Assembly: GCF_002937075.1 (NCBI RefSeq)
Contig: NZ_NHSJ01000140.1
Span: forward strand, 17,060-81,059
Reading direction: 5' to 3'
Length of the DNA stretch: 64,000 nucleotides
Source of the DNA: Rhodoblastus sphagnicola
Lineage (GTDB): Bacteria; Pseudomonadota; Alphaproteobacteria; Rhizobiales; Beijerinckiaceae
The notes beneath the pieces were generated by a model that saw only the letters and a list, made by a program, of their open reading frames with translations, made no database searches and was not told where the DNA came from. Shown here piece after piece: positions 42,961-63,752 of this stretch; positions within the stretch are counted from its first letter, which is position 1, and each line of letters begins with the position of its first letter. Both the position numbers and the translations under genes were made by a program.

Positions 42961-45075
42961 TCAGGCGCCGACCGGAACGGCGATGCGCAGGGCGCCCCAA
43001 TGCTCGCCGCGAACGACCACCGGCATCGAAATGTCCTTCATCATGTCCACGACGCCGCCGCCGAGGTCGCGCGGGTAGGACTGCACCAGCACGTCCTGGA
43101 GATTGCGCGCCGCCGCCAGTCCCGCGCGATCGTCGAAGATGCGCCGGTTGCGCGAATGGCGCGCGTTCCAGACGGGATCGTCGCCCTGGGGCTGGGACCA
43201 GATCTTGTTATGCACGGGAATGTAGCCATTGCGATCGGTGACGAGGCAGAACGTCAGGCGCGGGTCTTCGGTAAGCGCGGTTTCCAGGATCGGCGGCAGA
43301 ATCTTTTCGAGCAGTTCCAGCGACACGGTCGTGACCTGCTCCGGGTCCGTGCCGGGAATCGGGCTGTAGTCGGCGCTGAACAGATCCTCCGGCGAAATGT
43401 CGCCTTGGGCCAGCGCTCGTTCGAACGCCTCCTGAACGCTGTCGCGCCGTCGCGCCGCCAGGGCGCGCAGCGGCGCGTCCTTGTCGATCTCGCGGCGCAC
43501 CAGTTCGGCCAGATCGCCGCGCTGGGCGGGCGACAGCTCGACGAATTCGACGCGCAAGATGTCAGGGTCGCGCGCGCGGCATTTGCCCTGAATGGAGCCG
43601 ATGCCCGGAAGGTTCATGACAATGTCCTCGCCCTCCTCAAGCCCGTGCGAGGCGATCCAGAGCGAGCATCCGCCTTCGGAAATCTCCATTGTCGAAACGT
43701 TCTCGCGACGGCCGTGAAGATCGAGGGTCACCTGTAGCTTGACGGGAATGCGCGGGTGGCGGCGCCCATCCACACCGAGAAAACCGCGCACGGTGATGGT
43801 GAGCCGGTTGGTCAACCCGCGCAGCATGCCCGCGACCTTGGAGCCGAAATTCTGGACGTTCAAGGCGATGTTTTCGATCTCGACGACGCCGGCGGTGAAC
43901 ATGCGCGCGCTGCGGCTGAGATCGTTGGCGCTGTTTGCCGCCGACTTGGCGTTGCCGGTGATTTCCTCCAGTTGCGCGACCTGATGCGCGGCATGGGTCG
44001 CCACCCCGCGCGCCATGCCATCCATGTCGCCGATCATTTCGCCGACCCGGCTCAGGGCGGCGGAGGCCGCCTCGGTCGCCGTGACGATTTCGGCGATCTG
44101 GTCGGAAATTTCTCGGGTCGCGACAGCGGTTCGCTGCGACAATTGCTTGACTTCGCTCGCCACCACGGCGAAGCCGCGTCCGGCCTCGCCGGCGCGCGAG
44201 GCCTCGATGGTCGCGTTGAGGGCCAGCAGGTTGGTCTGGGCCGAAATGGTGGTGATGAGCTTGACGATTTCGGCGACGCGGCCGGCGGTTTCGGTCAGCC
44301 GCACCATCCGTCGCGCCGCCTCCTCGGAGACGGCGACCGCCTCGGTCGCCATGCGCGATGTTTGCTCGGCCTGGTCGCCGACGTCGCGGCTGCTCGCCTG
44401 CAACTCGTCGATCGCCGCCGCGACGGCCTTGATCTCGTCGCGGTTCGACTTGGAGCCGCCTTCGATCATCTCGAAACCGCGCCGCAACTCCTCCATGGAG
44501 CGGGACAGTTCGCCGACAATCTCGGTCAGGTCGTCGGATCGGGCCTTGGCGGTCCGGTGCGCGACCATCACCTCTTCTTCCACCGACTTGACCATTTGCT
44601 GCGCGCCGCGGTGGAGCATCTGGTCTTCGGCGTTTTCGACATAGGCCGTGAGCGTCAGCTCCATGTCGAGAAAGAGGGCGCGGGCGAGGGCGATCAGTTC
44701 CTCTGGCGCGCGGGCGTTGTGGTCGCCCGCGACGACCAATTCGAAAAGAAAGAGATAGCCTTGCAGGACGAAACGCGGGGTGACGCCGGCCTTGGCGTTC
44801 TCCAGGCCGATCCGCCGCACGCTCGCTTTGAAGGCGTCGTCGTCCGCGCCCGTCAGCAGGCCGCGCCAATGCTCGGCCAGTTCCTTCTTGAACGCTTCGA
44901 GGCCCGCCTGCCGCGTCAGCACGGCCAGTTCGGGATCGTCGCGGAATTTTTCGTGATAGGCTTCGATGAGCGCGTCGAAGCGCGGCATGATGCGCGCGGT
45001 GGCCCGCGCAAGCGCGCCGCTTCCGGAGTTGGCGGACTGGGTCTTTCTCGCGCGGAGGCGAGAGAACTGCAACAT
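42961..45075 (-). CDS. Globin-like MCP with PilZ and C-terminal sensor domain, haem histidine replaced
   Basis: This 704-residue soluble receptor has an N-terminal protoglobin-like domain (about 25-160) aligned with the neighbouring receptor, but the proximal histidine position is Asn93 ([10 protein letters not shown]). The signalling domain follows ([12 protein letters not shown]), then a PilZ-like domain (R-R-H-P-R-I-P and E-I-S-E-G-G), and a C-terminal domain of about 190 residues that ends in a Cache-like strand ([14 protein letters not shown]). It therefore probably does not bind haem in the usual way, and may respond to c-di-GMP and a cytoplasmic ligand. ATG 45075 chosen with GGAG upstream. 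Confidence 0.78.
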
Positions 45076-45154
45076 GATGGGTCCAACTCCGGTAGGATCG
45101 TCGAGCGAACCATCGCGGGCTGGCGCGAAGCTTGCAGCCGCCGGCGCGCATGCC

Positions 45155-45186
45155 GGCAGGTCTGGATGGCGGCAGGTCTGGATGGC
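45155..45186. repeat. Two perfect 16-bp tandem copies
   Basis: GGCAGGTCTGGATGGC occurs twice in a row (45155-45170, 45171-45186), upstream of the minus-strand receptor gene. Probably a recent slippage duplication; an operator pair is possible. Confidence 0.6.
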
Positions 45187-45215
45187 GGCGCGGAAATCCC
45201 GCAACCGCAAAACGT

Positions 45216-46049
45216 TCAGGCGGGCGCGGCTTCGCGCGCGTCCGCCTCGCGCGCAAGCGAAAGCTCGGCGCCGTTGTACGCCACGCCCAGCAGCGCCAGA
45301 ACCTGATCGCGCAAGCCGATGAATCCGGGGCTCGACCGGTCGTGGGTCTGCGGTCCCGACACCGACAGCACGGTCGCGACCCGGCCGGGATCCGGCCGCA
45401 TCACCACCACGCGGTCGCCGAGATAGACGGCTTCATCGACATCGTGCGTCACCAGGATCGCGGTCGCGCCCTCCTGACGCACGATGCGCAGCAGTTCATT
45501 CTGCAAGCGCAGGCGGGTCAGGGCGTCGAGCGCGCCGAGCGGCTCGTCGAGCAGCAGGAACCGCGGCCGGTTGACCAGCGCCCGCGCGATGGCCACGCGC
45601 TGCGCCATGCCGCCGGACAATTGCGCGGGATAAGCGTCCGAAAAGCGCTCAAGGCCGACGAGGCGCATCTGCGCGTCCACGCGCTCCGCCTTTTCCGCCT
45701 TGCCGAGCGGACTGTGGCGCAGGGCGACGGCGATGTTCGACCGGACATTCAGCCAGGGCAGCAGCCGGTGATCCTGAAACACGATGGCTCTGTCGAGACC
45801 GGGCGTCTTCACGCGAACGCCATCGATGCGCACCTCGCCCTCGTAATCGGTGTCGAGGCCGAGGATCAGGCGCAACAAGGTGGATTTGCCGCAGCCGGAC
45901 GCGCCGACGATGCTGACGAACTCGCCCTCGTCGACATGGAGATCGACGCCGCTGAGCGCCAGCATTTTTCGCCCGGAGACGAGGAAGCGTTTGCTGACGT
46001 GGGAGATGTCCAGCGCGTGCGCGGCGGTTTCCCGCGCGGGCGCCGTCAC
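45216..46049 (-). CDS. ABC transporter ATPase, second SsuB/TauB-like system
   Basis: This 277-residue nucleotide-binding subunit has Walker [10 protein letters not shown], signature L-S-G-G-M-A-Q-R, Walker B F-L-L-L-D-E-P and the switch region V-T-H-D. GTG 46049 overlaps the stop of the upstream permease (GTGA). It completes an importer with two permeases and the binding protein encoded at 47981-49090. It is a paralogue of the ATPase at 8751-9554. Confidence 0.87.
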
Positions 46050-46885
46050 AACGTCCTCCAGCGCAGCAGACGCCGCTCGGCCGCCCGGGCCAACAGGTTG
46101 AAGAGGAGGCCGACGCCGCCCAGCAGCAGGATGCACAGCAGCAGCCTGTCCATCTGGAACAATTGCTGGCCCTCGTTCATCTGGCCGCCGATGCCCGGCG
46201 CGATGTTGAACAGCAGTTCCGCGCCAACGGTCCCCGCCCATGCGCAGATCAGGGCGGAATGCAGGCCGGTGAAGATTTGCGGCAACGCGCAGGGCAGGGC
46301 GATCAGCCAGACGAAGCCCAGGCGGCCGAACAGCAGCACATTGGAAAGCTCCCGATAGGATTTGGGGACTTCCGCGACGCCGCGCCAGCTGTTGACCAGG
46401 GTCGGCTGGAACGCGGCCATGGCGATGAAGGCGATCTTGCCGGCCTCGTTGCCGCCGAACCACATCGACACCAGCGGAATCCAGGCGAACAGCGAAATCT
46501 GCCGATAGGTCATCAGGGTCGGGCCGAGCGCCCGCTGCGCCAGGGGCGAAAAGCCCAGCACAAGACCCGCCGATACGCCGGCGCAGGCGCCGAGGACGAA
46601 GCCGGCGAGATCGCGCCCGAGACTGGCGAGCACATGGTGAAACAGGTCGTCATGAACAAAACCTCGCCAGCCGCGAACCGCGACGGCTTCCAGCGACGGA
46701 AGAAATCTGGCGTCGACGCCGGGCAGATGCGCGCCAATCTCCCAGACCAGCAACGCCGCCAGCGGCGCGAGCCAAGGGCGCCAGCCGCTGGCGCCAAGTT
46801 TCGAGACGAGACGCGACAGCAAGCCCGGTCCCGCGCCTGGGCGGCTTTTCGCGCGCGCGGCGCCCAGCGCGACGGTGAAATTCAT
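46046..46885 (-). CDS. ABC transporter permease, SsuC-like (second of two)
   Basis: This 279-residue inner-membrane protein has about six hydrophobic segments and an EAA-type loop in a divergent form (V-P-K-S-Y-R-E-L-S-N-V-L-L). ATG 46885 overlaps the stop of the first permease (ATGA). Because it is distinct from that one yet coupled to it, the pair probably forms a heterodimeric channel. Confidence 0.82.
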   Translation of the reverse strand: MNFTVALGAARAKSRPGAGPGLLSRLVSKLGASGWRPWLAPLAALLVWEIGAHLPGVDARFLPSLEAVAVRGWRGFVHDDLFHHVLASLGRDLAGFVLGACAGVSAGLVLGFSPLAQRALGPTLMTYRQISLFAWIPLVSMWFGGNEAGKIAFIAMAAFQPTLVNSWRGVAEVPKSYRELSNVLLFGRLGFVWLIALPCALPQIFTGLHSALICAWAGTVGAELLFNIAPGIGGQMNEGQQLFQMDRLLLCILLLGGVGLLFNLLARAAERRLLRWRTL

Positions 46886-47736
46886 GCGGCGCCCTCCAGA
46901 TGCCAGCGGCTCAAGCGGAGTTCGACCCATCGCAGCAGGGTGTGGAAAATGAGACCGATGAGCGCGATGACCGCCATCGCGGCCATCACCAGCTCCAACT
47001 GGAACAGCTGGCGGCCGTAGGCCATCATGTAGCCAAGCCCTTCAAACGAGGCGAGCAGTTCGACGGCCACCAGCGCGTGCCAGGCATTGGCCAGGCCTTC
47101 GCGCAAGCCGGTGAAGATCGAGGGCAGGGCGCAGGGCAGGATGATCGTGGAAAAAGTCGCGCGCCGGTCGAACATCAAGACCCTGCCGAGTTCGCGGTAG
47201 CCGGCCGGCACGTCGCGCACGCCCTGCAATGTGCAAAGCGTCGCCGGCAGGAACGCCGCCCAGGCGATCAGCACGATTTTCAAAGTCTCGCCAATGCCGA
47301 ACAGCAGCATCAGCACCGGCATCCAGGCGATATGCGGAATCTGGTTGAAGGCGAGAAAGAAGGGCTCGATATAGCCGCGCAGGGTCGCCGACGCGCCGAG
47401 CGCGCCGCCGACGCCGACTCCGGCGACGATCCCGACGGCGAAGCCGGACAGGACACGCTGGAGACTGACGAGCGTGGCGCTTTGCAAGCTTCCGTCCGCG
47501 GTAGTTTCGCGCAGCGTCTGCCAGACCGCGTCCGGCGACGGCAGGATCTGCTCGGGAATCCAGTTCCACCGCGCGCAAAAGAACCAGGCGGCGGCAAGCC
47601 CGACGGGAACCGCGAGGCCCGCCAAGGCCTTGGCTGCGAACTTGGCGGCGAAGGCGCCGAACCGGCGCAGGCGGTCCGACATCGACATCCCGATCCCCGG
47701 TCGGGCGGGCAGGGCTAGGGTTCGTCCGAGGCTCAT
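46882..47736 (-). CDS. ABC transporter permease, SsuC-like (first of two)
   Basis: This 284-residue inner-membrane permease has at least five membrane segments and the loop V-P-A-G-Y-R-E-L-G-R-V-L (about 170-181), the counterpart of the EAA motif. ATG 47736 chosen with GAGG upstream; GTG 47742 and later ATGs are alternatives. It is separated from the binding-protein gene by 240 bp that contain their own dyad site, so permeases and ATPase may be transcribed separately. Confidence 0.82.
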   Translation of the reverse strand: MSLGRTLALPARPGIGMSMSDRLRRFGAFAAKFAAKALAGLAVPVGLAAAWFFCARWNWIPEQILPSPDAVWQTLRETTADGSLQSATLVSLQRVLSGFAVGIVAGVGVGGALGASATLRGYIEPFFLAFNQIPHIAWMPVLMLLFGIGETLKIVLIAWAAFLPATLCTLQGVRDVPAGYRELGRVLMFDRRATFSTIILPCALPSIFTGLREGLANAWHALVAVELLASFEGLGYMMAYGRQLFQLELVMAAMAVIALIGLIFHTLLRWVELRLSRWHLEGAA

Positions 47737-47913
47737 CGTCACCGCCTCGTCGGCCTGGATGTCGGGAGGCCCGCGACAGAGCGGCCGAAGCCCAGACCTC
47801 CCGTTCGTTCGACTGTCATGCGCAAGGCCTCCGACCTGGAATTTCCGTGGGGATCGCGCATCGCTTTCGAGGGCTGACCGCTGACGCGCGCGCCGGTATT
47901 ATTTATGAGTAAG

Positions 47914-47930
47914 CCTATAGTCTTTATATT
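47914..47930. promoter_or_regulatory. Dyad operator-like site 4
   Basis: CCTAT, 7 bp, ATATT, in an AT-rich patch between the binding-protein gene and the first permease, 178 bp before the permease start. One half-site is good, the other has two deviations. It has the same spacing as the other sites. Confidence 0.45.
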
Positions 47931-47980
47931 GTTTTAGTAAAAGGCATTCGCGCCCTCGTCAAGCGCTTTCTGGCAAACCC

Positions 47981-49090
47981 TCACTGGCTGGCGCTTCGGG
48001 TTTTTTCGACCTCGCCATCGGAAATCTTGTCGCCCTTGGCGTCATAGGCGGGCCAGAAATGTTCGAGGCCGAGTTCTTTCAACGCGTGATCGAGATATTT
48101 GGGCTCCAGCCAGGCATCGACATCGACGTCCTTTTTCAACAGGCCATAGGCCTTGGCGCGCTCGGTTTGCGCCTTGTAGCGACCGATGGTGTAGGGGTCT
48201 ATCAGCGGGCTGATCCGCCACGCCAACCGCTCGCCCTGATGGTCGGCGACGAAGCTGCTCACAGGCAGGCCTGATTTCGCCCAGATCTCGAACACCTTGT
48301 CGCGATTGGCTTCGTCGGCGGTGAAGCCGGCGGCCTTGACGAAGGCGTTGACGACCTTTTGCGTCGTGTCGGGATGCGCCTTTTCAAAATCCTCGGTCAC
48401 GAAGATCGCGGCGTTGCGGCCCAATGCGCTGACCTCGTCCTTGTTCGAATAGACGATCTTGACCAAGCCGTTTCGCGCGAGATCGAGATATTCGACCTGG
48501 CCGAACACCGCGTCGACATTGCCCGACAGGAGGGCGGAAACCGCCGCGGCGGAGTCGAGGCTGACGAAGCGGACGTCCTTTTCCGTCAGGCCATGCGCCG
48601 CGAGCGCGAGATCGGTGGCGATCTGAAGATTGGTGCCGCGAAACTGCGACACCTTGCGTCCCTTCAAGTCCGCGATGGAATGGATATCGGAATTGGCGGG
48701 AACCGCGAGATAGAGCGGTTCGCGCACGCTGGCGCTGAGCAGGAGGCGGGTGCGCAGGCCCCGGGATTTTCCGACCAGCGCCGGCAGGTCGCCCAGCGCG
48801 AAGACATCGATCTGTCCGGCCGCGATCGCCTCGTTGATCACGGGGCCGGCGCCGCGAAAGAAGGTCCAGGTCACCTTGACGTCGGGCTGGTCCTTGAACT
48901 CGTCCTCGACGAAGCGCTGCACATGCGCCACCGCGACAGACGTGCTGTGAACAAAGGGCCGGCCGTCGAGACCCGTTCCAGGGACGGCGATGCGAATTTC
49001 GGTCTCCGCCCATGCGGATGTCGCGGCCAGCGCGCAAAAATTCAGCGCCGACAGGGCGAGGGCGAACATCGAGGCGAGTTTTCGAACCAT
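47981..49090 (-). CDS. ABC transporter substrate-binding protein, SsuA/TauA-like
   Basis: This 369-residue periplasmic binding protein has a Sec signal peptide (about 1-28, cleavage after S-A-W-A). The body shows the sulfonate/taurine-binding layout: a T-F-F-R-G-A-G-P segment near 78, D-V-F-A-L-G-D-L-P near 95, G-R-K-V-S-Q-F-R-G-T near 150. GGAG eight bases before the ATG. With two permeases and an ATPase downstream it forms the second sulfonate-type importer in the window. Its ligand is unknown and probably differs from that of the first system, as the two binding proteins are quite different. Confidence 0.82.
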   Translation of the reverse strand: MVRKLASMFALALSALNFCALAATSAWAETEIRIAVPGTGLDGRPFVHSTSVAVAHVQRFVEDEFKDQPDVKVTWTFFRGAGPVINEAIAAGQIDVFALGDLPALVGKSRGLRTRLLLSASVREPLYLAVPANSDIHSIADLKGRKVSQFRGTNLQIATDLALAAHGLTEKDVRFVSLDSAAAVSALLSGNVDAVFGQVEYLDLARNGLVKIVYSNKDEVSALGRNAAIFVTEDFEKAHPDTTQKVVNAFVKAAGFTADEANRDKVFEIWAKSGLPVSSFVADHQGERLAWRISPLIDPYTIGRYKAQTERAKAYGLLKKDVDVDAWLEPKYLDHALKELGLEHFWPAYDAKGDKISDGEVEKTRSASQ

Positions 49091-49160: not shown

Positions 49161-49177
49161 CCTATCGTATTAATAGA
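49161..49177. promoter_or_regulatory. Dyad operator-like site 5 between divergent transporter genes
   Basis: CCTAT (49161-49165), 7 bp, ATAGA (49173-49177): nine of ten half-site bases fit a perfect dyad. It lies 71 bp before the ABC binding-protein gene and 60 bp before the MFS gene, so one site could control both directions. Confidence 0.66.
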
Positions 49178-49236
49178 TAAATACCAGCACTCACAACCCG
49201 CGCTCACGACCCGCTCTTTGCCGCCAAGGATTTCCG

Positions 49237-51359: not shown

Positions 51360-51376
51360 ACGATAGGGTTTATAGG
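51360..51376. promoter_or_regulatory. Dyad operator-like site 6 before the nitrogenase-like operon
   Basis: ACGAT (51360-51364), 7 bp, ATAGG (51372-51376); on the other strand CCTAT-N7-ATCGT. It lies 56 bp before the radical SAM gene and 95 bp before the divergent SDR. It has the same spacing as sites 1, 2 and 5. Confidence 0.6.
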
Positions 51377-51431
51377 TAATTTGAAGGCAGTTTCGCGCGT
51401 CGGGCCGCTTTCGGCATCTGGAGAGACAACA

Positions 51432-52652
51432 ATGGCGACGTCTGAAATCGGATTGAAAAACCGTTTGTATCAGGAGTTGGCTCTCAAGGCCGAATTGCAG
51501 ACCGATGGCCTCGCTATCGATTCGGAGACGCTCAGCTTCATCGCGCCGGGCGTGAAAACGCAGGAGGCGGTGCATTGCCTGTTCGCCATGGATTTCGAGG
51601 TCTACAAGGGCCAGTTGCCGGCCTATTTCCGCCTTCCGCTCGGCCTTGTCGCGCCGTTCCGCTGGAACCCCAAGTCGCGCAACCGGCTCGCGCTGGATGG
51701 CGAGCGCGTCATTGTCGCGCGCGGTGACAATGAACTCAGCGAAGCCACCTTCCCCGAGCGTCCGGGCTTCTACGGCAAGAAGACCAGCGACGGCTCCGCG
51801 ATGGAGACCATCGGCCTGCTCGGCGCCGAACGGCAGTTGTTCATCGCCTATTCCAATGAGTGCTCCTACAAGGAGAAGGGCGAGGACTGCCTGTTCTGCA
51901 ACATCAATTTTACCGCCGACACCTACGGCGAGCGCGAAGGCATTTTCTGGAAGAGCGCGCGCCAGATCGGCGAAGTCTATGCCGAGGCGCGCCGGCTCGA
52001 TCTCGTCGACAAGGTCACGATCTCCGGCGGCGTCATCCCCGAGCGGCGCGAACTCGAATATTACAACGACGTGGCCGAAGCGATCCAGCATTTCGGCGGC
52101 GTCGTGGATTTCAACGGCACCGCCGTGGTCGCCGCCCCGATCGACCTGCGCAACATCGACCGCTTCAAGGAGGCCGGCTACCGCACCACGGCGATGAACA
52201 TCGAGATCTGGGAGAAGGGGATCTATGACGTGATCTGTCCGGGCAAGTCGCGCGAAAGCGGCGGCTGGGACCATTGGCGCTCCGCGCTGGAATATGCGGT
52301 CAAAGTGTTCGGCCACGGCCATGTCCGCTCGAACATCGTCGCGGGGATCGAGCCGAAGCGCTCGACCCTGAAGGGCATCGAATATCTGTCGGAACGGGGC
52401 GTCGTCGCCACGGCGAGCATCTGGTGCCCCAATCCCGGCTCCGAGCTTTACGGCCATCGCGCGCCCGAGCCGGAATGGTATGTGGACCTCGCGCACAAGA
52501 TCGCCGCGATCTGGGGCAAGGCCGGCTTCACCTGGGCCAATCTCTACGATTCCAACGCCGGCGTCGAAACCTTGCAGCACGACATCTGGCGCATCGAGCG
52601 CGAGACGCTGCCGATCTTCCCGCGCAAGCAACTCGCCGCCGCCGCCGAGTGA
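51432..52652 (+). CDS. Radical SAM protein with CX8CX2C cluster motif, nitrogenase-like operon
   Basis: A 406-residue protein with three cysteines at 144, 153 and 156 (C-S-Y-K-E-K-G-E-D-C-L-F-C). The spacing C-x8-C-x2-C departs from the usual C-x3-C-x2-C, but the context (T-I-S-G-G-V near 200, typical of the SAM-binding G-G-x-P-like strand) supports a radical SAM fold. It is not a canonical NifB: the motif differs and no NifX-type extension is present. GGAGA lies seven bases ahead of the ATG. It is followed after 69 bp by the NifH-like gene. It may modify a cofactor, the substrate or the partner protein; function unknown. Confidence 0.72.
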   Translation: MATSEIGLKNRLYQELALKAELQTDGLAIDSETLSFIAPGVKTQEAVHCLFAMDFEVYKGQLPAYFRLPLGLVAPFRWNPKSRNRLALDGERVIVARGDNELSEATFPERPGFYGKKTSDGSAMETIGLLGAERQLFIAYSNECSYKEKGEDCLFCNINFTADTYGEREGIFWKSARQIGEVYAEARRLDLVDKVTISGGVIPERRELEYYNDVAEAIQHFGGVVDFNGTAVVAAPIDLRNIDRFKEAGYRTTAMNIEIWEKGIYDVICPGKSRESGGWDHWRSALEYAVKVFGHGHVRSNIVAGIEPKRSTLKGIEYLSERGVVATASIWCPNPGSELYGHRAPEPEWYVDLAHKIAAIWGKAGFTWANLYDSNAGVETLQHDIWRIERETLPIFPRKQLAAAAE

Positions 52653-52721
52653 CGCTGGCCGAATGACGTTCTTGCTGAGCGGCCCGCCGGCCGCTCCGAA
52701 ACCCTTCGGAGGAGAAGATCC

Positions 52722-53594
52722 TTGAGCGCGAAACCCAAGCATATCGCCATTTACGGCAAGGGCGGCATCGGCAAGTCCACCACCACGTCCAACATCAGCG
52801 CCGCGCTCGCCGAGTCGGGTTTTCGCGTCATTCAGATCGGCTGCGATCCCAAGAGCGATTCCACCGTCATCCTGCGTGGCGGCGCCGAACTGCCAACCGT
52901 GCTGGACTCCCTGCGCGATCGTTCCCGGCCGAAGCTGGAGGACATTTCCACGCTCGGCTTCGGCGGTGTGCTGTGCATCGAGGCTGGCGGCCCGGTTCCC
53001 GGCGTCGGCTGCGCCGGGCGCGGCATAGCGGCGGCCGTCGATTTGCTCGAAGAACTCGACGTGTTCGGGACTTTCAAGCCGGACTATGTGCTTTACGACG
53101 TGCTCGGCGACGTGGTTTGCGGCGGCTTCGCCGTGCCGATCCGCGATGGCATCGCCGAGGCCGCTTTCGTCGTCGCCTCCTCCGATTTCATGGCGATCTT
53201 CGCCGCCAACAACCTGTTCAAGGCGATTGACAAATATGCCGCGACGGGCGGCGCCCGGCTCGGAGGCGTCATCGCCAACAGCCTGCAAACCCCCTATGCG
53301 CGCGACCTGCTCGACGATTTCGCGGCCCGCACCGGCACGGAAATCGTCGGCTATGTGCCGCGCTCGCAAGCTGTCGCGCAGTCCGAGCTTTATGGCCAGA
53401 CGGTGATTGAGGCGCAGCCCTATTCGGAGCAGGCCGAAATCTATCGCGCGCTGGCGCGCCGGGTGGTCGGCGACCATCCCACCCGCCTGCCAAAGCCGCT
53501 CGATGGACCGGACCTGAAGGACTGGGCCAAGCAATGGGGCGATCGCATCTTCGGCGTCGAGCATGGCGCGAAAAACTCCGCGGCGAGGCTCTGA
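52722..53594 (+). CDS. NifH/BchL-like ATP-dependent reductase of a nitrogenase-like system
   Basis: This 290-residue Fe protein homologue is NifH-like along its whole length: P-loop G-K-G-G-I-G-K-S-T, switch region G-C-D-P-K-S-D-S-T, and the two cysteines that hold the [4Fe-4S] cluster between subunits, Cys97 (V-G-C-A-G-R-G) and Cys133 (D-V-V-C-G-G-F-A). It should pass electrons one at a time, with ATP hydrolysis, to the two following subunits. TTG 52722 is the start, eight bases after a strong GGAGGAGAAG site. It is one base away from the next gene. The homologue classes are nitrogenase, protochlorophyllide reductase, Cfb and methylthio-alkane reductase; the reductase alone does not choose among them. 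Confidence 0.93.
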   Translation: MSAKPKHIAIYGKGGIGKSTTTSNISAALAESGFRVIQIGCDPKSDSTVILRGGAELPTVLDSLRDRSRPKLEDISTLGFGGVLCIEAGGPVPGVGCAGRGIAAAVDLLEELDVFGTFKPDYVLYDVLGDVVCGGFAVPIRDGIAEAAFVVASSDFMAIFAANNLFKAIDKYAATGGARLGGVIANSLQTPYARDLLDDFAARTGTEIVGYVPRSQAVAQSELYGQTVIEAQPYSEQAEIYRALARRVVGDHPTRLPKPLDGPDLKDWAKQWGDRIFGVEHGAKNSAARL

Positions 53595-53595
53595 C

Positions 53596-54966
53596 TTGGC
53601 GCGCCGTCCCCGCTTGCAAACGCGAGAAACCCGCCTCGGCGCGCTGGGCGCGCGGCTGGGAGACGCCGAATCCGTCGTCGCCGATTTCGCCGGCGACGAC
53701 CTGCCGCAAAAACGCATCCGCACCTTCTCGGAAGCCGCCCACGACGATCTCAGCGCCGCGCTGGACGTGCTCGGGCTGGTCGAGGATCTCGGTCTCGTCG
53801 TCCACGGGCCGCGCGGCTGCGCGGTCGGGCCGGGCGCCGCGCAGGAGAGCGCCACACTCGCGCGCATCGCGGTCACCGACCTCGACCAGCGCGACACCGT
53901 GCTCGGCGCCGGCGATGCGCTCGCCCGCACGCTGAAGCGGCTCAATGATGCGGTCAACCCCGCCGCGCTCGTCGTGCTGGGATCGCCGGTCGTCGCCATC
54001 AACAACGATGAAATCCGCGCCGTGGTCGCGGAGGTCGCTACGGAAATCGGCAAGCCCGTGGTTTGGGCGCGCACGGACGGTTTCCGCTCCCACATCGCCG
54101 CGACCGGCGCCGACGCCGCCGCCGACGCCCTGCTGAACATCGTCGATTTCCAGGGCGAACGCGAGCCGGACTTGGTGAACCTGCTGACGTCCTGGACTGG
54201 CCCCGCCATTGACGATTTCGCGGCGGCGATTTCGACGCTGGGCCTGCGCGTGAACGTGCTGCCGGCGGGCGCCAAGGTCGCCGCGCTGCATCGGGCGGCG
54301 CGCGCGCGTGCGAGCGTGGTTCTCGACCCCGACGGTCTCGACGCGCTGGCCTCGGGCCTGTCGGAGCGCTTCGGCGTTCCCGTTCTCGACGCGCCGCCGC
54401 CGATCGGGCCGAAGGCGACCGCCTTGACGCTCACGCGCCTCGCGGATCTCACAGGCCGCAAGATCCACGCGGAGGCGTCAGCGGCGGCCGTCGACTTTTT
54501 GCGCGACAAGCGTATCGTATTGGCGGGGCCATCCGCCTTCGCTTTCGCGCTGGCCGATCTCGCGGAAGCCGCCGGCGCCGAAGTTGTCGGCCTCACCCTG
54601 CCGCATCTCGACCGCACCCATTCCGAGCCGCTCGCCCGTTTCTCCGAACGCCGCCCCAAGGCGCAAATTCACATCGGGGAGGCGCAGGGTTTTGAACTCG
54701 CCAATGTCCTGCAACGGCTCGCGCCGGATCTGGTCGTCGGCGCCCCGGACGCCGTCGCGGCCGCGCTGCGGCTGGGCATTCCCGCCGCGCGGCTCGACCC
54801 CGCCGATGTGATCGGCGTATCCGGCGCCGACGCCTTCGCCAAAGCCGTCAGCGACGCTTTCGCCGGCGCGGCGCTGGCGCGGCGTCTCGCGCGCAGCTCG
54901 GCGCGCTATTCCGCCGGCTGGCTGCGCCGCAGCCCGGACTGGCACGTCAAGCTGGAGGTGAAGTAA
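53596..54966 (+). CDS. Nitrogenase-like component 1 subunit with a single cysteine (NifN/BchB position)
   Basis: This 456-residue component 1 homologue has the family outline (G-P-R-G-C near 71-75, then Q-R-D-T-V-L-G-A-G, then S-P-V-x-x-I-N-N-D-E-I). The whole protein contains only one cysteine, Cys75. The position of NifD Cys154 is Ser130, and there is no equivalent of the FeMo-co ligand Cys275. One cysteine here plus three in the next subunit would hold a single bridging [4Fe-4S], as in NifEN or protochlorophyllide reductase. The start is taken as TTG 53596; ATG 53563 would overlap the NifH-like gene. The stop overlaps the next ATG by one base. Confidence 0.85.
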   Translation: MARRPRLQTRETRLGALGARLGDAESVVADFAGDDLPQKRIRTFSEAAHDDLSAALDVLGLVEDLGLVVHGPRGCAVGPGAAQESATLARIAVTDLDQRDTVLGAGDALARTLKRLNDAVNPAALVVLGSPVVAINNDEIRAVVAEVATEIGKPVVWARTDGFRSHIAATGADAAADALLNIVDFQGEREPDLVNLLTSWTGPAIDDFAAAISTLGLRVNVLPAGAKVAALHRAARARASVVLDPDGLDALASGLSERFGVPVLDAPPPIGPKATALTLTRLADLTGRKIHAEASAAAVDFLRDKRIVLAGPSAFAFALADLAEAAGAEVVGLTLPHLDRTHSEPLARFSERRPKAQIHIGEAQGFELANVLQRLAPDLVVGAPDAVAAALRLGIPAARLDPADVIGVSGADAFAKAVSDAFAGAALARRLARSSARYSAGWLRRSPDWHVKLEVK

Positions 54967-56270
54967 TGGCCCGTCCGCTGGTGGGATTCCACGACGGCTG
55001 CGCCCTGCATGGCGCGCTGGCGACGGCGGCGGCGATCGAGGGCGTGACGCCGCTGGTCCACTCGACGCCCGGTTGCGCGCTGCGCGGCGCGTTCTCGAGC
55101 ACCGGCGCGCAAAATTTTCGCGGCGCGCCGATCCACCTGTCGCCGATCTCCTCGACCAATCTGGCGGAAAAACACATCGTGTTCGGCGGCGCGTCGCGGC
55201 TGCGCGAGCAGATCAAGAACACTCTGTCCGTGCTGCCGCGCGGCTTGCTCGTGGTCATCACCGGCTGTCCCACCGAAATGATCGGCGACGACGTCCCCGC
55301 CATGGTGCGGGAGGCCGTCACCCAGGGCGAAGCCGTGGTCGATGTCGGCGCCGCCGGTTTCCTGGGCTCCGCCCATCGCGGCTACGAACGCCTCGTCTCC
55401 GTGCTGGCGTCGCGGGTCGGCGAGCTCAATCTGGCGCCCGCGTCGGAGGCGCCGGGCCTCGTCAACATCTTTGGCATCGTTCCCCGCTACGACGAAACCT
55501 GGGCTTCCGACCTCGATGAAATCAGCCGCCTGCTCGCCGGCGTCGGCCTCACCGCCAATCCGATCTTCGGACCCGGCGGCGGCCTGTCTTCGCTGGCGGC
55601 CCTGCCCAAGGCCGTCGCGAGCCTCGTCCTCTCCCCCTGGGGCCTTGCCCCGGCGCAGGCGCTGCAAGAAAAGTCCGGCGTCGCGACCGTCGTCGCCGAT
55701 GGCCTGCCAATCGGCGCGGACGCGGTGGAAAAGCTTTTGCGACAGCTCGCGGCGGCGACCGGCGCCGTCGAGGAAACCGCGATCGAGCGCCTGCTGAGTT
55801 CCGAGCGCCGCTACGAGGATTTCGCCCTCGACGAAACGCTTGATGCGCTGAGCCGTCTCGGTCGCCGCCGCGTCGCGCTGGTCGGCAACAGCCTGCTGGC
55901 GGGATCGCTGGCGCGCTTCCTGGTTTCGACGCTGGGCTGGGAGGCCAGCGCCCTCGTCCTCACCGACGAACCCGACGGCCCCCTCCCGACCGATCTGGCC
56001 GGACGGGTCGTCGCGACGGCGGACGGGGTTGAGACGGCGGCGGCGATCCGGGCGTCGGGGGCGGACTTCCTGATCGCCGGCGCGCGCTATGGCGCGCTCG
56101 CGGCTGAACTCGGGATTCCCCTGGCGGCCATCGCGGATCTGGGCGGCCGCGCATCGCTGTCGGGCGGTTTTGTCGGCGCGCGCGGCGCCGCCCGGCTGCT
56201 CGCCGCGCTCACCGCGACACCCGTCGCGCCAAAGCTTTTTACCCCGCAGGCGGCGCTCGCGGCGCGATAG
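54966..56270 (+). CDS. Nitrogenase-like component 1 subunit with three cluster cysteines (NifE/BchN position)
   Basis: This 434-residue component 1 homologue contains exactly three cysteines: Cys12 (H-D-G-C-A), Cys37 (T-P-G-C-A) and Cys101 (I-T-G-C-P-T-E-M-I-G-D-D). The spacing of 25 and 64 matches the three P-cluster-site cysteines of NifE, NifD and BchN. The E-K-H-I-V-F-G-G segment near 68 is also a family mark. With the single cysteine of the preceding subunit they can coordinate one [4Fe-4S] cluster between subunits; no ligand for a large catalytic cofactor is seen, so the substrate probably docks directly near that cluster as in protochlorophyllide reductase. A nitroreductase-type flavoprotein follows after 30 bp. 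Confidence 0.87.
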   Translation: MARPLVGFHDGCALHGALATAAAIEGVTPLVHSTPGCALRGAFSSTGAQNFRGAPIHLSPISSTNLAEKHIVFGGASRLREQIKNTLSVLPRGLLVVITGCPTEMIGDDVPAMVREAVTQGEAVVDVGAAGFLGSAHRGYERLVSVLASRVGELNLAPASEAPGLVNIFGIVPRYDETWASDLDEISRLLAGVGLTANPIFGPGGGLSSLAALPKAVASLVLSPWGLAPAQALQEKSGVATVVADGLPIGADAVEKLLRQLAAATGAVEETAIERLLSSERRYEDFALDETLDALSRLGRRRVALVGNSLLAGSLARFLVSTLGWEASALVLTDEPDGPLPTDLAGRVVATADGVETAAAIRASGADFLIAGARYGALAAELGIPLAAIADLGGRASLSGGFVGARGAARLLAALTATPVAPKLFTPQAALAAR

Positions 56271-56300
56271 CCGGCCGCCACAAGCAAACAGGAGAAGATC

Positions 56301-56897
56301 ATGACCGTCATAACCTCACCCCGCCCGCTCGAACATGAAGTCGCCCCGCTGTTCGCCAATCGCTGGTCGCCGCGCGCCTTCACCGACGAGCCGATTTCCG
56401 ACGCCGATTTGTTCGCCGCTTTCGAGGCGGCGCGCTGGGCGCCGTCGGCCCGCAACGTCCAGCCCTGGCGTTTCGTCTATGCCCGCAAGGGAACGCCTGC
56501 CTTCGATAAATTCATCGGCGTGCTGTGGGAGCGCAACCAGACCTGGGCGCGCAACGCCGCCGCGCTGGTGTTTATTCTGTCGAAGAAGACCTTTGAGGTC
56601 GAGGGCGAGGAAAAGCCGCTGCGCAGCCATTCCTTCGACGCCGGCGCGGCCTGGGTCAGCTTTGCGCTCCAGGCCAGCCTGAAAGGCTGGAGCACCCATG
56701 CGCTCGGCGGCCTGGACTATGACAAGGCGCGCGAGGTCCTGGGCGTTCCCGATGATTTCGAATTGGAAATCGGCATCGCCATCGGCCGTCGCGGCGACAA
56801 GGCGCAATTGCCTGAATCGCTGAAGGCGCAGGAGGCGCCGAAATCGCGCCTGCCCCTGACCGAACTCGTTTCCGAGGGCCGTTTTTCCGGCAAGTGA
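56301..56897 (+). CDS. Nitroreductase-family flavoprotein
   Basis: This 198-residue FMN protein has the family N-terminus R-W-S-P-R-A-F and A-A-R-W-A-P-S-A-R-N-V-Q-P-W, which binds FMN phosphate, and a G-G-L-D-Y segment near the dimer interface. An AGGAGA ribosome-binding site, 30 bp after the nitrogenase-like subunit, makes it the likely last gene of that operon. It could supply electrons to the NifH-like protein's donor, or reduce an intermediate or product. Substrate unknown. Confidence 0.82.
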   Translation: MTVITSPRPLEHEVAPLFANRWSPRAFTDEPISDADLFAAFEAARWAPSARNVQPWRFVYARKGTPAFDKFIGVLWERNQTWARNAAALVFILSKKTFEVEGEEKPLRSHSFDAGAAWVSFALQASLKGWSTHALGGLDYDKAREVLGVPDDFELEIGIAIGRRGDKAQLPESLKAQEAPKSRLPLTELVSEGRFSGK

Positions 56898-59415: not shown

Positions 59416-61341
59416 ATGAGAATCTTGCTTCGTCTTGCTGCGGGCTGCGCCCTTCTGGCCACCCTTTGTCTCGCCGTCGGGCGCGCGCCAACAGCCGCGC
59501 CCGACGTTTCCTATGTCGGCGCGCAAACCTGCGCCGGTTGCCATCAGGCGCAAGCGAAAGGCTGGGCTGGCTCGCATCACGCCAACAGCATGACGGCGCC
59601 GACGCAAAAAAATGTGCTGGGCGATTTCTCCGGCGTGGACCCGCGCTTTTTCCGGCGCGGCGACGATTTTCTCATTCACGCCGAAGGCGCGGACGGCAAG
59701 CCGGCTGATTTCCGCGTCGCCGCGACGTTTGGCGTCGCGCCCCTTCAGCAATATCTCCTGGAATTTTCCGGCGGTCGCCTGCAAGCCTTTCCCACCGCCT
59801 GGGATTCGCGTGCGAAAAGCGAGGGCGGGCAAAAATGGTTCAGCCTCTATCCCGGCGAGAAGATTCTCCCCGGCGATCCCCTGCATTGGACCGGGCGCAA
59901 CGCCACCTGGAATTTCATGTGCGCCGATTGCCATTCGACCAGCGTCGCAAAAAACTACCGTTTTGACACCGACAGCTATGACACGCGCTGGCGCGAGCAA
60001 AACGTCGCCTGCGAGGCCTGCCACGGGCCGGGCGCGCGCCATGTCGCCTGGGCGAATGCCGGAGGGGGCGGGGCCGACAATGGCCTCATTCCCCTGAAAG
60101 AAGTCTCTGGCGTCTGGGCCGATTTTGACGCGCGCGGCATCCGGCATTGGCAGGGCGAAGCGCGGAAAAATCCGTCGGAAGACATTTGCGCGCCCTGCCA
60201 TTCCCGCCGCCGCCCGATCGCGCCAGCCAAACCCGGCGACGCCTTTCTCGACGCTTTTTCGCCGGCGCTGCTTGACGCCGGCCTCTACTTCCCCGACGGC
60301 CAGATCAAGGACGAGGTTTTTGAGTGGGGTTCGTTCCAGCAGAGCCGCATGCACGGCGCCGGCGTGACCTGCATCGACTGCCACGAGCCCCACGGCGCCG
60401 CTCTGCGCGCCCAAGGCAATGTTTTGTGCGGCCAATGCCACGCGGAAAGCGTGTTCGACCAGCCACAGCATCACCATCACGCGGAAAACACGCCCGGCGC
60501 GCAATGCGTCTCCTGCCACATGCCGCAACGCACCTACATGCAGGTCCATGTCCGCCACGATCATTCGCTGCGCATCCCCCGTCCGCAGGAGAGCGCGCGC
60601 GTCGGCGCGCCCAACGCCTGCACTGGCTGCCATGCCGACAAAAACGCCGATTGGGCGGCGGAACGCCTGCGCGACTGGGGCGCGAAGCGCCAGTCGCCGG
60701 AACAGCCGGCCTCGGACATCGCCAAGGCCACTGCGCTCGCCGCTCTCGCCGCGCAACCCCGCCCCGCCGCCCTGCAAAGCCTGATCCCGGCGCTGCGCTC
60801 GTCCTCGCCGCTGTTGCGCCTCGGCGCCCTGCGTGGCCTCGCGCCCTATGACGAGAGTTTTCGCGAAAAACTCGCCGGGCCGCTGCGCGACGATTTTTCG
60901 CGCGCGGTCCGCATCGAGGCCGCGCGGCTCACGCCACGAACCGACAGCGCCGCGCTCGACGAATGGCGCGCGGCGGAAACCCTCGCCGCCGACCGCCCGG
61001 AAAGCCACCTCAATCTCGGCGCGCTCGCGGCTGAGCGCGGCGACGCATCGGAGGCGGAGACCGAATTCCGCCGCGCGCTAAAACTGGACGAAAACTTCGC
61101 CTCCGGCTGGCTCAATCTCGCCGACCTCCTGCGCGCCACCGGGCGCGATTCCGAGGCGGAAGCGCCGTTGCGAAACGCGCTGGCGCGCGCGCCCGAGGAC
61201 GCGGATACCCATTACGCGCTGGCGCTGTGGCTGGTGCGGCAGAAACGGCTCGCGGAGGCGCGGACGCAGGCCGAACAGGCGGCGCGGCTCTGGCCAGACG
61301 ATGCGCGGTTCGGACAATTGAGCCGTCTGCTGAGACCGTGA
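59416..61341 (+). CDS. Octahaem c-type cytochrome with TPR C-terminus
   Basis: This 641-residue exported protein has a signal sequence (about 1-28) and eight C-x2-C-H haem sites: C-A-G-C-H, C-A-D-C-H, C-E-A-C-H, C-A-P-C-H, C-I-D-C-H, C-G-Q-C-H, C-V-S-C-H and C-T-G-C-H, spread from about residue 36 to 410. The last 200 residues are HEAT/TPR-like repeats (R-A-L-K-L-D-E-N-F-A-S-G-W). Such proteins are periplasmic electron carriers or reductases; no K/C-haem variation that would mark NrfA-type catalysis was found. It follows the sulfatase by 34 bp on the same strand. Partner unknown. Confidence 0.85.
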   Translation: MRILLRLAAGCALLATLCLAVGRAPTAAPDVSYVGAQTCAGCHQAQAKGWAGSHHANSMTAPTQKNVLGDFSGVDPRFFRRGDDFLIHAEGADGKPADFRVAATFGVAPLQQYLLEFSGGRLQAFPTAWDSRAKSEGGQKWFSLYPGEKILPGDPLHWTGRNATWNFMCADCHSTSVAKNYRFDTDSYDTRWREQNVACEACHGPGARHVAWANAGGGGADNGLIPLKEVSGVWADFDARGIRHWQGEARKNPSEDICAPCHSRRRPIAPAKPGDAFLDAFSPALLDAGLYFPDGQIKDEVFEWGSFQQSRMHGAGVTCIDCHEPHGAALRAQGNVLCGQCHAESVFDQPQHHHHAENTPGAQCVSCHMPQRTYMQVHVRHDHSLRIPRPQESARVGAPNACTGCHADKNADWAAERLRDWGAKRQSPEQPASDIAKATALAALAAQPRPAALQSLIPALRSSSPLLRLGALRGLAPYDESFREKLAGPLRDDFSRAVRIEAARLTPRTDSAALDEWRAAETLAADRPESHLNLGALAAERGDASEAETEFRRALKLDENFASGWLNLADLLRATGRDSEAEAPLRNALARAPEDADTHYALALWLVRQKRLAEARTQAEQAARLWPDDARFGQLSRLLRP

Positions 61342-63691: not shown

Positions 63692-63735
63692 TGGAGCTCG
63701 CGAGCGCGGAACGTTTGTTCCATACAATGATTATA

Positions 63736-63752
63736 TCTATAAAAAAGATCAA
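63736..63752. promoter_or_regulatory. Dyad operator-like site 7 before cysE
   Basis: TCTAT (63736-63740), 7 bp, ATCAA (63748-63752), 45 bp before cysE. The left half is perfect, the right half has two deviations. The surrounding 40 bp are strongly AT-rich. Confidence 0.5.

Follow-up and report, generated by a model that had tools for sequence, protein, structure and literature searches.

A nitrogenase-like operon of Rhodoblastus sphagnicola very probably encodes an isethionate reductase with its predicted cluster ligands mainly on the K-type subunit

The window analyzed here, a stretch of 64,000 nt from Rhodoblastus sphagnicola (assembly GCF_002937075.1, contig NZ_NHSJ01000140.1, positions 17,060–81,059 of the forward strand), carries at 51432–56270 an uninterrupted nitrogenase-like operon that encodes, in this order, a radical S-adenosylmethionine (SAM) protein, a NifH-like reductase, a D-type subunit and a K-type subunit. 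With high confidence, we assign the operon as isrBHDK, in one clade with the isethionate reductase (Isr) of Rhodobacter capsulatus. The encoded enzyme is predicted to free sulfite from isethionate (2-hydroxyethanesulfonate) as an anaerobic sulfur source. The Isr family was published in 2024 (Morimoto et al., PMC11423573), and the operon adds a member to it; isethionate would then be the substrate in R. sphagnicola as well. The genes, the ligand pattern and the clade come from the present analysis, and the dependence of growth on Isr from the R. capsulatus work.

Results

The operon and its counterpart in R. capsulatus

The five open reading frames singled out in an initial annotation, which was made from the sequence alone, are all intact (Table 1), and the cysteine counts given there are confirmed. 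The NifH-like protein has cysteines at positions 41, 85, 97 and 133, of which the cluster cysteines 97 and 133 carry the same numbers as the ligands of MarH in methylthio-alkane reductase (Mar; PMC12552129). IsrD contains exactly one cysteine (Cys75) and IsrK exactly three (Cys12, Cys37 and Cys101), i.e., four in the pair altogether. This is in agreement with R. capsulatus Isr, where the gene order is isrB-isrH-isrD-isrK, IsrD has the single conserved Cys74, IsrK has Cys12, 37 and 99, IsrH has Cys99 and 135, and neither ligand of the iron-molybdenum cofactor (FeMo-co) is present (PMC11423573). IsrB is 72% identical to a radical SAM protein named as R. capsulatus (P0158), and two IsrD homologues of the same naming (P0019 and P0020) are 451 residues long, have their sole cysteine at 74, and share 54–55% identity with the window protein. 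The CX8CX2C motif occurs in all 121 IsrB proteins examined (the query and the best 120 of 388 matches), and no NifB model matched IsrB at E 0.01. The closest solved structure to IsrH is chain 9fmg_D of the Mar complex (388.5 bits), followed by a NifH (284.3 bits), and IsrH scores under the nifH equivalog cut-off (365.7 against 394.35).

In R. capsulatus, mutation of isrB, isrH or isrDK abolishes anaerobic growth in the light with isethionate as the only sulfur source, growth of the isrDK mutant is rescued by isethionate lyase genes, and isrBHDK together with ssuCAB confers growth on isethionate on R. sphaeroides (PMC11423573). Usable sulfur is released from isethionate, and the DK complex is reducible by dithionite and displays Fe-S absorption (PMC11423573). 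IsrBHDK has since been used as a hidden Markov model target (PMC12330013), and the 2024 paper is cited by PMC11659671 and PMC13067680; searches of the open-licence PMC literature gave no report of a metal content, a structure or an in vitro activity for Isr.

AlphaFold2 models were obtained for IsrD (mean predicted local distance difference test score, pLDDT, 86.7; built from 35 of the 37 proteins found) and IsrK (mean pLDDT 91.0; 73 of 111), and their leading fold matches are MarD (9fmg_A) and MarK (9fmg_B), respectively, both with a template modeling (TM) score of 0.83. The one-cysteine subunit is therefore D-type and the three-cysteine subunit K-type, so that the two genes follow the sequence known from nifDK and marDK. 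The initial annotation had considered it unusual that the one-cysteine subunit comes first; since that subunit is the D-type one, the order is ordinary. For isrD, the TTG at 53596, directly after the isrH stop, is the more likely start because a database copy (P0007) begins there; an alternative frame opens at the ATG at 53563 and gives 467 residues, in which the cysteine becomes Cys86.

Cysteine ligands are stripped on the D side and complete on the K side

The IsrD query, for which the 7993 candidates sharing most words were scored, returned 37 proteins, the window's own included, and the IsrK query returned 111, of which 110 were counted after a NifE-named outlier (P0153) had been dropped. 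Conservation in these sets shows that the cysteine pattern is not accidental. The NifD-Cys88-type cysteine is invariant in the 37 D-type proteins, the Cys154-type position is Pro in all of them, and at the position of the Cys275-type FeMo-co ligand 24 have Asp and one has Cys. In MarD numbering, the Cys158-type P-cluster ligand is absent in 37/37 and the Cys270-type cofactor ligand in 36/37, and window IsrD has Asp244 and Pro384 at the positions of Cys270 and His429. The latter residue, a cofactor ligand in MarD, and its neighbor Arg428 (PMC12552129) are conserved in none of the 37 IsrD proteins, while 33 of them have His at the position of MarD His375, a residue next to the cluster. No cysteine precedes Cys75 in window IsrD; at the D Cys62 position, the alignment sets Asp50 against MarD Cys66 in a column where the NifD cysteine is itself misaligned, and the equivalent residue in IsrD is given as Arg in PMC11423573.

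IsrK Cys12, Cys37 and Cys101 align with NifK 70, 95 and 153 and with MarK1 31, 55 and 120 of the same genome. Among the 110 K-type proteins, Cys occupies these three positions in 107, 109 and 110 cases, respectively, and gaps account for the remainder. At most four of the six P-cluster cysteine positions are held by the window pair. The 37 D-type and 110 K-type proteins bear out the initial view that a full P-cluster set and the FeMo-co ligands are lacking. Many Isr homologues have extra cysteines elsewhere, so that the total of exactly four, while true for the window pair, extends to only a part of the family. One such pair of cysteines, at window IsrD positions 176 and 242, is present in 13 of the 37 IsrD proteins, always with both residues (P0027, P0029–P0039 and P0043), and is absent from window IsrD; in the alignment, one of the two is close to MarD Phe199 and the other stands two residues ahead of the cofactor cysteine, so that in one subgroup of Isr the pair might act as ligands in the cavity or form a disulfide.

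The K-type paralogues NifN, VnfN, BchB and BchZ of the same genome were compared at these three positions. None of the four has Cys at the first position, three have Cys and BchB has Asp at the second, and three lack Cys at the third, where BchB has Cys95 aligned. Judged from these alignments, Isr mirrors NifEN and dark-operative protochlorophyllide oxidoreductase (DPOR), its D side being stripped and its K side complete, and the four cysteines would hold one [4Fe-4S] cluster per DK pair. The NifEN/DPOR pattern put forward in the initial annotation is correct for the ligand number (3 + 1), but the assignment to subunits is inverted. An enzyme of the DPOR or NifEN type, with a tetrapyrrole or a metal cofactor as its substrate, would have the same ligand count, and yet is scarcely credible: the ligands are on the opposite subunit, the pair scores far under the model cut-offs (82.5 and 70.5 bits for nifE against 505.1, and likewise for nifN, bchN and bchB), and NifE, a second NifE-type protein, BchN, BchB, BchY and BchZ, all over their cut-offs, are encoded elsewhere in the genome.

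Phylogenetic placement

The tree comprises 46 rows, i.e., 12 of the 37 IsrD and 16 of the 111 IsrK proteins, and 18 paralogues encoded in the same genome as the window. A six-row clade with support 100/100 unites window IsrD with its R. capsulatus counterpart P0019, and all 12 IsrD rows form one clade (100/100) that is sister to the two MarD rows (95/88). The IsrK rows group with the two MarK rows at 100/99. The initial annotation had set the pair apart from Mar, and in the tree IsrD indeed branches separately from Mar, Bch and nitrogenase; the further suggestion of a position outside every known functional clade does not hold, because alignment and phylogeny put the operon with Isr, which is not among the clades that the annotation had listed.

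The close relation to Mar raises the reading of the operon as a methylthio-alkane reductase with lost ligands, which we consider very improbable. The Cys158- and Cys270-type ligands are missing in the 37 IsrD proteins, apart from the one with a Cys270-type residue, IsrD forms a fully supported clade of its own, two ligand-bearing Mar-type sets are present in the same genome, and IsrB matched no NifB model at the threshold given above, whereas MarB is reported to have all NifB motifs (PMC12552129).

Genome setting and distribution

In the genome, which is 5.09 Mb long and 99.26% complete, 23 matches to the component 1 family were obtained. NifD, NifK, NifE, a second NifE-type protein, AnfK, BchN, BchB, BchY and BchZ score over their own model cut-offs, VnfK is slightly under its cut-off (862.2 against 873.95), and for two D-type proteins the scores against R. 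rubrum MarD are 989 and 611 bits; NifN, a second N protein, VnfD, AnfD and two MarK proteins are named from their position beside partner genes and their cysteines, not from a model. The combination of Nif, Vnf-like, Anf, DPOR, chlorophyllide oxidoreductase (COR), two Mar-type sets and Isr in one genome (G000, contigs C34, C70, C60, C41, C18, C134 and C140) is unusually full. Since separate sets exist for these roles, Isr is not a drifted copy filling one of them. The second Mar-type DK pair (L019, 4392–7583, on C134) is the more divergent, with 611 bits to R. rubrum MarD as against 989 for the copy on C18; it retains P-cluster-type cysteines and the Cys270/His429-type residues, and may have a different substrate.

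Isr is rare among related genomes. A search with IsrD gave some match in 23 of 60 genomes (its own included), at the Isr level only in its own (949.6 bits) and in G008 (744.6 bits), one of ten congeners, all others being at or below 115.7 bits; when IsrB was the query, at E 1e-60, matches were confined to 2 of 199 family genomes, again counting its own. The G008 identities equal those of the Rhodoblastus acidophilus DSM 137 locus (L009). When named genomes were scanned with short exact words of IsrK, four loci were obtained and R. capsulatus was not among them; the scan hence carries no information on the frequency of the family.

Among the other isethionate-desulfonating enzymes looked for in the genome, no Xsc (best 264.2 bits against a cut-off of 676.4) and no SsuD (67 against 518.2) scored over the cut-off, and no glycyl radical enzyme resembling pyruvate formate-lyase (PFL) was found. 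Isr may therefore be the route for isethionate in this organism, other, so far undescribed routes being possible.

Neighborhood of the operon

An ATP-binding cassette (ABC) importer of the sulfonate type lies upstream on the opposite strand (Table 1); its best NCBIfam matches are sulfonate-, taurine- and nitrate-type importers. The neighbors were compared by tblastn at E 1e-3 with four named loci (L009–L012, about 8 kb on each side). The R. acidophilus locus has the same order as the window, i.e., permease, binding protein, major facilitator superfamily (MFS) protein, short-chain dehydrogenase/reductase (SDR) and isrBHDK; in Cereibacter ovatus and Rhodovulum strictum, isrB is immediately upstream of isrH, and in Clostridium sporosphaeroides (L012) the DK genes are adjacent, with IsrH about 6 kb from IsrK. 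ABC importer matches were obtained in all four loci, which is weak evidence because these families are common. SDR and MFS matched in L009 only, cysE gave a weak match (E 0.001) in L010, and the flavin mononucleotide (FMN) nitroreductase, the arylsulfatase, the cytochrome and the GNAT protein had no match in L009–L012. Of the neighbors on which the initial annotation drew, the sulfonate-type importer was retained as relevant, while nitroreductase and arylsulfatase are without homologue in the four loci and SDR has one in a single locus; the nitroreductase was rejected as an Isr partner on this comparison.

Table 1 Features of the window discussed in the text
Feature	Position	Strand	Basis
isrB, radical SAM protein, CX8CX2C cluster motif, 406 residues	51432..52652	+	NCBIfam NF045502 variant_rSAM, 426.8 bits (cut-off 125)
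isrH, NifH-type reductase, TTG start, cluster Cys97 and Cys133, 290 residues	52722..53594	+	Pfam Fer4_NifH, 312.5 bits
isrD, D-type subunit, single Cys75, TTG start, 456 residues	53596..54966	+	Pfam Oxidored_nitro, 169.8 bits
isrK, K-type subunit, Cys12, Cys37 and Cys101, 434 residues	54966..56270	+	Pfam Oxidored_nitro, 219.2 bits
Sulfonate-type ABC importer	45216..49090	-	Pfam ABC_tran, BPD_transp_1, NMT1
Importer ATPase	within 45216-46463	-	
Importer permeases, two	46046-46930 and 46882-47742	-	
SsuA-like binding protein	47981-49090	-	SsuA_fam, 129.5 bits (cut-off 163.5)
Word TTATAGGTAA upstream of isrB, possible regulatory site	51370..51379	+	TWATAGRTAW match
Like word in the ssuA/MFS gap	49171-49180		
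Like word upstream of cysE	63733-63742	-	

The importer and the arylsulfatase gene downstream of isrBHDK bear on the identity of the substrate. An enzyme of the Isr family could act on another organic sulfur compound, e.g., another short alkanesulfonate or a compound derived from a sulfate ester; we regard this as unlikely, although model scores do not tie the importer to one substrate, the identity of R. capsulatus IsrD to the window protein is no more than 54–55%, and no assay was found for any relative closer than R. capsulatus. The 72% identity of IsrB to the R. capsulatus-named protein and the full support of the six-row clade that includes R. capsulatus IsrD argue for isethionate, and the arylsulfatase homologue was not found in the four related named loci.

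The word upstream of isrB has counterparts at the importer region and cysE. The common pattern, TWATAGRTAW, was derived from these three sites after they had been seen; it occurs three times in the window, with none expected from shuffles, and at nine sites genome-wide, as against 17 for the reversed pattern. The six remaining sites have no evident sulfur gene alongside, as judged by eye without a family search of the neighbors, and upstream of R. acidophilus isrB there is a similar word only. The words that the initial annotation had noted at the operon and cysE are present at both, but since the pattern is post hoc and the six other sites are not at evident sulfur genes, a shared regulator of isrB, cysE and the importer region is only suggested.

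Three further observations concern the surroundings. In Cereibacter ovatus (L010, 7900–8010), about residue 180 of IsrH is joined to the last residues of IsrD and most of isrD is absent, due to either a real deletion or an assembly collapse. In the window, a chemoreceptor-type protein with protoglobin, methyl-accepting chemotaxis protein (MCP) signaling and PilZ domains is encoded at 42961–45210 on the minus strand, and a multihaem cytochrome of the c554/c7 type with TPR repeats at 59416–61341 on the plus strand, downstream of the arylsulfatase.

Discussion

The following sequence of events is likely for Isr. The Ssu-type importer would take the sulfonate into the cell, and an IsrH dimer with one [4Fe-4S] cluster would hydrolyze ATP and hand single electrons to IsrDK, which would hold one [4Fe-4S] cluster per DK pair with Cys12, Cys37 and Cys101 of IsrK and Cys75 of IsrD as ligands. 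The substrate would lie in the cavity of the D subunit, which is the home of the large cluster in Mar and nitrogenase, because most IsrD proteins still have the His corresponding to MarD His375 although the cluster ligands have been lost. Two electrons would break the C–S bond, giving sulfite and, as a predicted product, ethanol. IsrB would be required either for activating the enzyme or for making something that it uses; as it lacks a match to NifB models, it is unlikely to be the builder of a NifB-type cluster. Isr would then be a nitrogenase turned inside out, in which the only catalytic cluster is a [4Fe-4S] mainly on the K-type subunit, the cofactor cavity is emptied, and an unactivated sulfonate C–S bond is cleaved, a tentative proposal to which we give somewhat less than an even chance. 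Mar, otherwise the only nitrogenase relative known to cleave C–S bonds, employs large clusters for this purpose.

A move of the active site to K together with the ligands is not favored by the distribution of Isr-specific invariant positions, i.e., those differing from both Mar copies, which number 36/80 in D and 18/72 in K over 13 chosen D/K pairs. These pairs comprise the window's own, ten presumed to stem from the same genome, one sharing a species name and one paired by equal identity to the window, and the identity to the window is about equal for the two subunits (44–80% for D, 42–79% for K).

It could also be IsrB that cleaves the C–S bond, IsrHDK merely re-reducing or activating IsrB or making its cofactor. 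The lack of large-cluster ligands in IsrDK would fit such a division of labor, as would the better conservation of IsrB compared with IsrD/IsrK (about 92% against 80% in R. acidophilus, 72% against 51–54% in Rhodovulum strictum), yet IsrH is equally or better kept, and in characterized nitrogenase-type complexes it is generally the D(K) component that reduces the final substrate. The role of IsrB is left open in PMC11423573, and the finding there that all four isr genes are essential in R. capsulatus does not separate IsrB from IsrDK as the cleaving component. On balance, we judge cleavage by IsrB improbable and prefer IsrDK as the site of C–S cleavage.

Several points weigh against the interpretation of the operon as an isethionate reductase of this design. 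IsrK does not form a single clade apart from MarK (2 changes; such a clade is recovered in 56% of the 200 bootstrap trees), the distant IsrK rows P0133 and P0139 not being separated from MarK in the tree, and the tree was flagged for long Bch branches and uneven letter make-up. The importer scores under every NCBIfam cut-off shown, and no IsrB match was found in the 17 kb of the Clostridium sporosphaeroides locus. Moreover, we know of no precedent for a lone [4Fe-4S] cluster that cleaves an unactivated alkyl C–S bond in a nitrogenase-type protein.

It is the chemistry, not the family, that makes the Isr operon of interest, and the chemical inference drawn in the initial annotation from the sequence alone was sound. 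Of the DPOR-like reductase of an organic sulfur compound or a cofactor that was envisaged, a likely organic sulfur reductase remains, with DPOR and NifEN models far under cut-off. In the whole family, an unactivated C–S bond would be cleaved by a nitrogenase-type protein that has ligands for a single [4Fe-4S] cluster; if there is indeed one small cluster on the K side, large clusters would not be required for reductive C–S cleavage by the nitrogenase fold. R. sphagnicola is a good test bed for comparing cluster content and substrate within one cell, because Nif, Vnf-like, Anf, DPOR, COR and two Mar-type sets are encoded alongside Isr.

Comparison with related systems

DPOR and COR (BchLNB and BchXYZ) contain a single small cluster to which one subunit contributes three ligands and the other subunit the fourth, an Asp in the case of BchB. 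The three ligands are on the D-type subunit in these enzymes, but on the K-type subunit in Isr, which also scores far under their models. In NifEN, which carries the L-cluster and is a maturase, NifN (K-type) retains one of the three cysteines; the 3 + 1 count is the same, but in Isr the K-type subunit keeps all three and the D-type subunit one.

Mar (MarBHDK) is a sister lineage that likewise performs reductive C–S cleavage, with an H-D-K complex and a radical SAM partner (PMC12552129); its His375-type residue is mostly kept in Isr. It uses a P-cluster and a carbide cluster, Fe8S9C, with Cys270 and His429 as ligands (PMC12552129), whereas Isr is without the D-side P-cluster cysteines and these two cofactor ligands, and IsrB, as described above, matches no NifB model.

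R. capsulatus Isr differs from the system described here in that its genome has Xsc, which is not found over the cut-off in R. sphagnicola, and in its surroundings, the importer of the window having two permease genes and the neighbors SDR, nitroreductase and arylsulfatase being others than in R. capsulatus. The two systems share the gene order, the radical SAM partner, the cysteine pattern of one in D and three in K with two cluster cysteines in H, the lack of FeMo-co ligands, and a sulfonate importer (SsuCAB in R. capsulatus; PMC11423573) nearby, and they belong to the same clade.

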